Origin: Microvelia longipes
Taxonomy: Eukaryota > Arthropoda > Insecta > Hemiptera > Veliidae
Length of the DNA: 64,000 nt
Direction: 5' to 3'
Assembly: GCA_018340805.1 (NCBI GenBank)
Contig: JACMZG010001913.1
Location: 28,256,811-28,320,810, forward strand
The notes beneath the pieces are model-generated. The model did no database searches. It saw only the letters and a list, made by a program, of their open reading frames with translations, and was not told where the DNA came from. Position numbers and translations under genes: made by a program. This document shows positions 60,801-63,800 of the stretch, piece after piece (position 1 is the stretch's first letter; each line of letters begins with the position of its first letter).

Positions 60801-63800
60801 ACAGAAACCCTGACTGAGGCCATGAAACTGTTATAAGAGGTCTACTAGTATGACTATGGTTACTTTAAGGGACTATGGCTAATGGTTATAAGGTCTACAA
60901 GTAAGATGGCTAGAATGTGTAAGGTCTACTAGTGTGTCGGTAGCTGACTGACCTGGCGTCAGTAGGCTTGTAGGTGACATCGTATTTTTCAACTGCTTGT
61001 GCTTGAGTTCTCCAAGATACTTTAACCTCTGAAGGAGATAAGAACATGACAGTAATATTCTCCGGTGCTCCTCCATAAGGTACGCTTCCTGTAACAGCAA
61101 CCAAATCTATTAGTCCAAGAGCCGGAACTGAAAAAATGTGACTCATTTTGTACTGCGTAAAACCAATTTTTTCTGAAAATATATATATATATATATTAAA
61201 TTATGAAGAAAAAATAATCTACCTATCTAGAGTGGAGCCCTTCATATTATTGCGCATTCTCAAAATTTTATAAAATCGCCTGTGTTTAGCATAATTACTT
61301 TTTTATAAAAAGAAATTTGTATACGGCCCTGTAGGTTGTATGCAAATCACAAAGAAAAATAAATTAAAGGAAAAAATTAAAAAAATTATAGGTTATAAAA
61401 TGTTTTGTAAAACAAGTGTTTAATCATCAAACTCTGATGACTTCAACCAAAGTTATGGCTCTTTCAAAACCACCAAAAAATGGTTACTTTCAGTGAGTTT
61501 CTTTGAAAAAATATTAGCTTTTTGTACATTTTTTTGCCATTTAATAAATGTCATATCATAATTGTGCGAGAGACACCTAGGAACTGTAACAAGCAAAATG
61601 CAATGCTACATCTGGGAACTGTTCCATCATTCGACATTCGTCATCATTGATAGCTCGACATTCAGGCTCTGTCGGCGCCCTGATGAGTTAGACGTAACGA
61701 AACAGAGTGGGACATGACATTATGTCGAGCTATCAATGATGACGAATGTCGAATGATGGAACAGTTCCCAGATGTAGCATTGCATTTTGCTTGTTACATT
61801 TCCTAGGTGTCTCTCGCACAATTATATTGTGTCAACTATTCATGTTTTGCAAAACTCGGTAGTATCAAAAATGATAAATGTCATATCTTTAGTTTTAGTA
61901 ATTCGATTTTGACGAAATGCCACTCGCAGTTAGGAAATTTTATCAGCTATAAAAAAGTTCTTTTCATGTTTTGCACATGACTTACCGGGAACCACTTATT
62001 TTTTTATCAACATTTTATTTTATTTGATAAGTTGTACAATATTAATTAAGTACAAAAAAATTAATAACATGACATTAAAACAAAAATTAACATGCATTAA
62101 TAGTAACTTGTTAACTAAAATATTACCCTCCATCTTTAGGAAAAGCCCTGTGCTGATGGAGGGGAACCAGTGACTCCTGGTCATCATTACTCTTTTTATA
62201 ATTACTCATAAAATGAATCAATATAAAATGATTTAAATTTCTGAGAAAAAAAGAACAGTTATAAAAAATAATTACTACAACTATAATAAAATTTCATCTC
62301 ATGTTATACTTTTTATTTTACTTATATAACTTATTTACTTATATAATATTTTATTTTTATACAAATTTATTAATTAATTTTATATTTTAGAAGTTAAAAT
62401 ATTACTAGTTTACTTATTGCAAGGAAACTATTATAATTTGTGCGATTTTTTAATATTTTGAGCGAGCGCATTCATATGAAGGGCTCCACTCTAGATAGAC
62501 AGACTATGCTTTTCCGTCGTATTTTAAGGTATATTTTCAGAAAAATTTGTTTTGAAGTAGTACAAAATGAGTCACATTTTTTGGGCCTGGCTCTTGGACT
62601 ATATTGTTCAACAAATAGAGAACTTCAAAGAGCTTAAAGCATATGCTGGTACCGCAAGCTACAAGATAACCTAATCAAGCATACTATCATACAATAAAGC
62701 ATATCATTTACTATTCCAGAGGGAAAAGTTTATCCTCTGTTGTAGAAGTGGTCACATTAGATATTATTGTCCTATGATAAAAGTTTTTTTGGATGGTCAC
62801 TACAAGGCTTTTGAACAGCAAGGGTTTCTACCTTACTGTTCGTATTTTAATGCAAATTTGTTAACATATTTAATGCAAATGAACTAATTTGTAGGCAGAA
62901 TCAAAGAGCGCTTATAGTATTCATATTTGAACACTGGAGATTTGAAATCGAGATTAACTTTTAACTTTAATAGTTAAAATTAGGAAAAGGGAAGTGAAGA
63001 TGTTGATTTTTGGACTCTTTCCATTGATTTTTATTCAAAATTCAATCTTTAACTAAACTATGAGTAAACAAAATGATGTCAATAAAGAGCATTTTTTGTT
63101 ACTAATGGGATGAATATGCGCTTTTCCTTGAATTAGTTTGAATTAAACTTGTAGAAAAATCTACAGAAAAAATTAGTAACGATTAGTTGCTTTTGCACAT
63201 GTTATAAAGCACCATCGGAAGCATATGCACAAGCGGGATTGTTAATCACGGAAGAAAAGGAGACGTCCACCCGGCATGGAACTCTAAATGTTTATGAAAA
63301 CCAAAAACCGCACTAATAAAGCATTTTAGAAATGAAAATAGGAAACCAATTTAATAACTACCTCACTATTAAAAATAATAGTGGAATATTAGAAGGTAAA
63401 CTGATAATGATAACACGCATGCGTATTGTAGTTTTTTTGCGAATTTTCTTTGGGAAAAAAATCCTAATAAAATTGCTCATGTGGTAAGGAGGAGGAATTA
63501 CTGCTCAGGTTATTAAATTTATATCGAAAACTTAAGCAAAAATTTCATTGATAAGCAAGAAAGCGAAAAAAAAATCACCCGGCTTTTGGACCTCCGTGTC
63601 AGAATATTTTACGTTATTTAAACGTAAAACAACGCATATAAAACCAACTCTGAATATAAGACCTAAGCTATGTTCACATGCAAAAGTTGTGTCCACAAGT
63701 ACAGTCTACGTTAAGTGTAAATTAAGCCAAATATGAAACAGGAATTATGAAAAAAAGTTTTGACACTTCAAGACATAAGTTACGGCAACGGCTTGATAAG

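Follow-up and report, generated by a model that had tools for sequence, protein, structure and literature searches.

Metazoan non-LTR retrozymes, small tandem repeats with one hammerhead ribozyme in each unit (Cervera and de la Pena 2020, PMC7229834), are among the described systems that come closest to the locus reported here. Their GC content lies under 50%, their target duplications exceed 4 bp and their hammerheads are of type I (PMC7229834). What mobilises them is left open in that account, where Penelope-like elements are named as a strong candidate. The word 'inverted' is absent from its text, and head-to-head arrays, which are present in the family described below, are not reported there under that word.

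Penelope-like elements leave tandem or head-to-head copies flanked by target duplications and offset by a 'tail' (PMC11167929; PMC3846280). The purified Penelope protein cuts and extends both DNA strands, and it starts reverse transcription from two adjacent internal RNA sites, the interval between them being the genomic 'tail' of 30–40 bp (PMC11167929). In vitro no difference in start site was seen between the strands, so that a strict pairing of one start of each kind does not follow from the data given in that source. In rotifer Penelopes there are inverted copies, a 31-bp tail and duplications of 8–10 bp, and the inverted repeat falls 37 bp short of the length of its partners (PMC3846280). 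Penelope-like elements reportedly carry a hammerhead of minimal type I (PMC7761336), and that of the Anolis Penelope requires its own protein in vitro (PMC11167929).

Pairs of hammerheads that complement each other via a palindromic short stem have been described in the newt satellite RNA and in avocado sunblotch viroid (PMC6155905; PMC3088659). The stem that they share is stem III, just as the original prediction for this DNA had stated; at the present locus it would be stem I. Plant LTR retrozymes have the type III strand order that we find here, but they differ in their LTRs, their 4-bp duplications and their complete stem I (PMC7761336), none of which was seen at this locus. Type III hammerheads with long helices are described from insects and from HDV-like RNAs (PMC7936874). 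In open-access full text, with the proviso that this is no proof of absence, we found neither a type III-ordered hammerhead devoid of stem I in animal retrozymes or Penelopes, nor a tail signature reported for any retrozyme.

The window – the whole 64-kb stretch of DNA that was analysed – carries a retroelement that we confidently regard as retrozyme-like and non-autonomous, with an insertion signature of the Penelope type. Its hammerhead core, at 61667–61707, is complete: every feature that the original prediction attributed to it is found in the sequence, where the invariant core is present together with stems II and III (Table 1). The strands of stem II (61687–61690 and 61695–61698) enclose the loop GACG, GAA occupies 61699–61701 and A15.1 position 61702, while stem III (61667–61672/61702–61707) comprises six Watson-Crick pairs plus G61666.T61708. 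The strand order is that of type III, in contrast with the type I order of metazoan retrozymes and of Penelope-like elements, and RF00008 is the best match of its Rfam clan, of which only the best match is listed. Stem I is cut down to the palindrome GGCGCC, again as had been noticed, and it makes no hairpin within one copy: because GGC and GCC would have to pair around a loop of zero nucleotides, stem I cannot form there. Two other pairings were discarded. An alternative register of stem I, with GGC at 61665–61667 facing GCC, would turn U16.1 into C (by inspection), and the arms of the surrounding foldback cannot be the source of stem III, which sits inside the 60-nt loop between them.

Table 1. 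Coordinates of the hammerhead, of the insertion that carries it and of the older element in which it lies (positions in the window)
Feature	Position	Strand	Basis
Older host element, imperfect terminal inverted repeats (~78%)	61111-62601	n/a	repeats 61111-61279/62442-62601
Left target-site duplication, ATAAATGTCATATC	61544-61557	+	exact 14-bp match to 61874-61887
Inverted unit copy, ribozyme absent; outer end at unit 152, inner end at unit 49	61558-61661	-	unit mapping
Ribozyme-bearing unit copy, from TTCAGG (unit 305) to about unit 200	61662-61873	+	unit mapping
Hammerhead stem III, 5' strand CUCUGU	61667-61672	+	sequence, RF00008 alignment
GUC; predicted cleavage 61673/61674	61671-61673	+	sequence, RF00008 alignment
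Palindrome GGCGCC in stem I position; 6-bp stem only between two copies	61674-61679	+	sequence
CUGAUGA core	61680-61686	+	sequence, RF00008 alignment
Stem II, GUUA-GACG-UAAC	61687-61698	+	sequence, RF00008 alignment
GAA, A15.1 and stem III 3' strand ACAGAG	61699-61707	+	sequence, RF00008 alignment
Right target-site duplication, ATAAATGTCATATC	61874-61887	+	exact 14-bp match to 61544-61557

The core belongs to a large family. Its pattern, GTC-N6-CTGATGAG-N10-CGAAAC, has 4713 exact matches (2283 + 2430) in the 664.6-Mb genome, and the reversed pattern, used as a control over the whole genome, has none. In a DNA similarity search, 40 of 3044 candidates gave 142 scored matches, a part of which were regularly spaced at about 315 bp. 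This is the length of a unit (among 114 unit lengths, some units being counted twice in overlapping regions), and it falls within the 150–450 bp of the non-coding tandem units of metazoan retrozymes. Each unit has one hammerhead core and the units form tandem and head-to-head arrays: locus L179 has six units running one way, then six the other, with a period of 315, and the largest locus holds 16.6 units, both directions summed, clipped by the edge of its region. About half of the loci (43/81) contain less than 1.5 units. GC content is 42%. Folded as a circle, the unit has a z score of -2.7, with 2 of 100 shuffles as good, and 70% of its bases are paired vs 64% in shuffles. Being copies from one young lineage, these sequences make of copy number no independent evidence that the ribozyme works.

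That the host element is small and non-coding was part of the original prediction, and the units bear this out: every frame of each distinct unit of 312, 315 or 318 nt contains at least one stop, and three consensus units joined together offer no ATG frame longer than 106 aa. The same stops discard the idea of an endless reading frame of the kind found in certain viroid-like RNAs. Unlike Penelope-like elements, the unit shows no long conserved reading frame; reverse transcriptase and GIY-YIG endonuclease are not encoded in it, and it is at most a non-autonomous user of Penelope machinery.

A spacer of about 100 bp (unit 205–304) separates tandem units, for example in L179. The window copy lacks it, as do solo insertions beginning at unit 305 (L213, L215). 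Within it are GGTAAGT and a stretch of TATATT, which may be promoter or splice-like sequence. A search of a two-unit stretch for spliced-leader or snRNA in this spacer returned nothing near the cut-off besides the hammerheads, the snoRNA matches being weak (E 1.8–4.9).

In the window the core does lie, as had been claimed, in the loop of a foldback, the arms of which (61558–61661/61722–61825) differ by one mismatch in 104 pairs, 102 aligned positions including that mismatch and the following two pairing as well. The foldback results from a head-to-head insertion, so that what looks like a foldback is one insertion, 61558–61873, made of the two unit copies of Table 1; the right edge of the ribozyme-bearing copy is fixed by the duplication. 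Among the 25 insertions having both ends inside the first regions fetched, 17 are flanked by exact direct repeats of at least 11 bp, vs none of 600 mispaired left-right controls. In core-pattern loci, 20 of 43 blocks have a duplication of at least 10 bp, a length reached by 2 of 600 controls under slightly narrower limits. The target duplications, the tandem arrays and the count of 4713 cores make more precise the view that this is a mobile element: it is a retroelement. One insertion (L258, 1374–1682) has a 23-bp direct repeat at its flanks vs the usual 11–14 bp.

The ends of the insertions were mapped at 82 loci: 24 core-pattern loci (from 30 given, six being second hits within one insertion), 20 consecutive regions of C505, 37 chosen by similarity, which biases them to well-kept copies, and the window. 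When blocks shorter than 120 bp are excluded, 83 remain, 62 head to head and 21 direct. Outer 3'-type ends, 141 in number, fall into two zones, 65 at unit 148–172 and 66 at unit 190–214, with 10 elsewhere. Both ends are seen in 59 head-to-head insertions. In 52 of them the ends are divided between the zones, one near unit 160 and the other near unit 204; in none do both fall in the first zone or both in the second, and in the remaining 7 an end lies in neither zone. These zones, as well as the 302–309 interval that follows, were picked after inspection of the data. At the other side, 22 of 144 5'-type ends are at unit 302–309, where some 3.6 would be expected, 13 nt upstream of the cleavage site. 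Around the predicted cleavage site itself there is no pile-up (8/144 at unit 312–317 or 1–5), which implies that the ribozyme cut is not where templates mostly start. The sequence at unit 305 is TTCAGG, with AGACGT at +27 from its A, an arrangement that we take to resemble an initiator followed by a downstream promoter element (canonical offset +28). That transcription starts at unit 305 is a guess.

How might a hammerhead without stem I work? Neighbouring units could pair GGCGCC with GGCGCC as a common stem I and swap their stem III strands, making a double hammerhead. Such an object would cut multimers and leave monomers or circles intact. Folding predictions give a mixed picture. An isolated loop is predicted to adopt a fold different from the hammerhead, no better than that of its shuffles, and two isolated 60-nt loops reach -27.7 kcal/mol as a double hammerhead, vs -35.8 when they form their best duplex and -26.2 as a pair of separate hairpins. 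When the copies sit at the two ends of a 383-nt RNA, the double-hammerhead fold is 2.7 kcal/mol above the minimum, and the minimum fold already includes one stem II and the outer stem III together with the shared stem I. The mean pair probability of the shared stem I is 0.19 in this RNA, and 0.67 and 0.26 with longer flanks; in a three-copy RNA the value for copies 1 and 2 is 0. Thermodynamics, as modelled, allow a mechanism with a shared stem I and do not demonstrate it. We would give about an even chance to a hammerhead working as a dimer of this kind. If cleavage did occur only in that way, it would be a second design of a multimer-specific hammerhead.

Covariation, which had been proposed as a check, brings stem I no support. 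A variant that seemed compensated in L212, GACGTC, makes up 1 of 69 GACG[CT]C sites genome-wide; GGCGTC beside GGCGCC accounts for 1 of 74 among the matches listed. The rate being the same, GACGTC is no commoner than expected and we rejected it as an instance of covariation. One AGCGCT occurs among the first 100 of the 4713 core-pattern places. Identical sequence at 54 of 75 ungapped ribozyme sites, and a GGCGCC linker in 73 of those first 100 places in contig order (counted by eye), make the family too uniform for covariation to be judged.

The same uniformity bears on the alternative that survives best. An ancestral type III hammerhead might have lost its stem I hairpin (GGC...GCC becoming GGCGCC), leaving a dead ribozyme in an element that moves without self-cleavage. 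The RF00008 alignment, with GGC and GCC on opposite sides of stem I and the model loop deleted between them, is what such a loss would look like; 5'-type ends are not piled up at the cleavage site; and mutants of the Anolis Penelope ribozyme still insert in vitro (PMC11167929). Against this, the commonest form is the one with an intact core and a perfect palindrome, in two samples biased to intact copies, one having been collected by the core pattern and the other by similarity to the window, and from this prevalence we infer that recently amplifying copies carried both core and palindrome. Loss of the hairpin therefore keeps a substantial, though minority, share of our belief.

As for the way in which the copies were made, the arrays are tandem and head to head with a tail offset, in the manner of Penelope-like elements. 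By analogy, the one-end-per-zone signature fits closely the pattern of rotifer Penelopes (PMC3846280), and the element is probably mobilised by Penelope machinery. The protein encoded by a Penelope-like element would bind a transcript and cut AT-rich DNA on both strands; reverse transcription would begin at two internal RNA sites some 40 nt apart, one per side, to give head-to-head copies with the 'tail' offset, of which the window copy would be a short product. With less certainty, the ribozyme would trim multimeric transcripts. Taken as a whole, we find it likely that this is a non-autonomous, non-coding element of the retrozyme kind, with Penelope-type insertion and a ribozyme that would trim multimers. 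A fuller version can be put forward only tentatively, somewhat short of an even chance: an animal retrozyme in which the usual design is exchanged for a type III-ordered hammerhead that lacks its own stem I and would be active only when two units pair their palindromes as stem I. Multimers would then be cut and monomer circles left safe. Penelope machinery would copy the element from two internal starts, and its tandem and head-to-head arrays would be the record of repeated passages around a circular or multimeric RNA, made on both strands of the target. Thousands of copies with a directly readable insertion signature make the question of the retrozyme mobiliser testable by counting.

Inverted segments and duplications of such length are known for LINEs too. 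Ordinary twin priming on linear multimeric transcripts by a LINE, with no Penelope machinery, would account for them, and the ends near unit 204 do lie just beyond the unit's own run of five A. It accounts poorly for the preference for two internal end sites, about 40 nt from each other and used one per side in 52 of 59 pairs, and a longer A tail was not noticed, in an unsystematic look at the ends. We consider LINE mobilisation unlikely.

A further question is whether the hammerhead is one at all, or a chance match in an unrelated high-copy repeat. At the gathering score, cmscan of the window gives no match. In E-value mode, RF00008 (Hammerhead_3) obtains 37.0 bits vs a curated cut-off of 48.5, with an E-value of 2.4e-4 for both strands of 64 kb and 4227 families (1.1e-6 on 301 b), and it is the sole ribozyme among 18 window matches at E <= 1. 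The covariance-model hit that had been called for is thus significant by E-value and falls under the threshold of Rfam; the shortfall fits the absence of a stem I hairpin, as the deletion of the model loop suggests. Two array units passed through cmscan scored 37.0 bits as well, the same as the window copy. A whole-genome RF00008 search gave nothing at E <= 0.001 among the 68 of 80814 candidates that were scored, and control genomes likewise gave nothing, which makes this negative no sign of absence.

When 3.8 billion bases were simulated with matching dinucleotide composition, a looser descriptor, the core with any linker of 3–30 and G-U pairs allowed, found 2 sites, or about 7e-5 per 64 kb. 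This amounts to roughly one chance hit per Gb when both strands are counted, a number that repeats would multiply, and the loose descriptor alone is therefore not decisive at the scale of a genome. The Rfam score should be stronger, since it also takes into account the consensus features GUC, U7, short loops and Watson-Crick stems. Elsewhere, the core words occur with a 6-nt linker in 52 viral and at least 118 prokaryotic stretches; among the 170 sites listed, none combined a stem II of at least 4 bp with a stem III of at least 6 bp. Five viral contigs of this set (L003, L009, L010, L020, L035) may hold true phage hammerheads in another register, with GTC falling by chance within the stem I hairpin, in which case the control would be conservative. 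Viral contigs contained no exact match to one 21-mer from the ribozyme or to one 20-mer from the arm, and the phage collection yielded only 4 records, with matches of 33–39 bp at E 0.1–0.5. Besides the E-value over all families, the context speaks against coincidence, animal hammerheads having been reported from Penelope-type elements and from tandem units a few hundred bp long (PMC7229834; PMC7761336). A chance match is very improbable.

Weakest of all is a MITE or foldback DNA transposon with a TA target and the motif in its loop by chance, which near-perfect arms, TA at both edges and a host element with terminal inverted repeats might evoke, and which the 14-bp duplication at the element's ends, duplications of at least 11 bp elsewhere in the family, the pairing of end zones, tandem arrays and variable arm lengths, instead of fixed terminal inverted repeats with a short fixed target duplication, make hardly credible and, for a TA duplication, rule out.

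The window, at C564:28256811-28320810, is animal DNA, with PDE5/6-like exons on the + strand. Two exon-like frames for a fibronectin III domain lie on the minus strand, at 57.0 and 60.9–61.1 kb, and the ribozyme element, on the + strand, is antisense to them; it adjoins the 61-kb exon, probably in an intron. It is inserted within the older inverted-repeat element of Table 1, which has TA at both termini. That older element is the target of the insertion and no part of the retroelement. The flanks of L179 are similar to it (similarity-search match C510:12591765), and we infer two copies of the older element with independent retroelement insertions.

Other features of the window stand apart from the ribozyme element. 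Foldback 34130–34425, with 141-nt arms 91% identical, contains CTGAAGA...GCGAAACGTTGGA at 34334, which we take, by resemblance, for a possible decayed hammerhead-like or Penelope-like motif; Rfam reports no ribozyme there at E <= 1. Foldbacks 37833–38087 and 2149–2397 are related to each other (82–89% over 35–50 bp) and do not match the ribozyme element. Between 12000 and 16000, a strong GC skew (-0.64, then -0.32) goes with reading frames of repetitive look, perhaps a minisatellite. Finally, an exon-like frame on the minus strand, 46617–46916, matches Pfam DUF4808 with an E-value of 2.8e-24.
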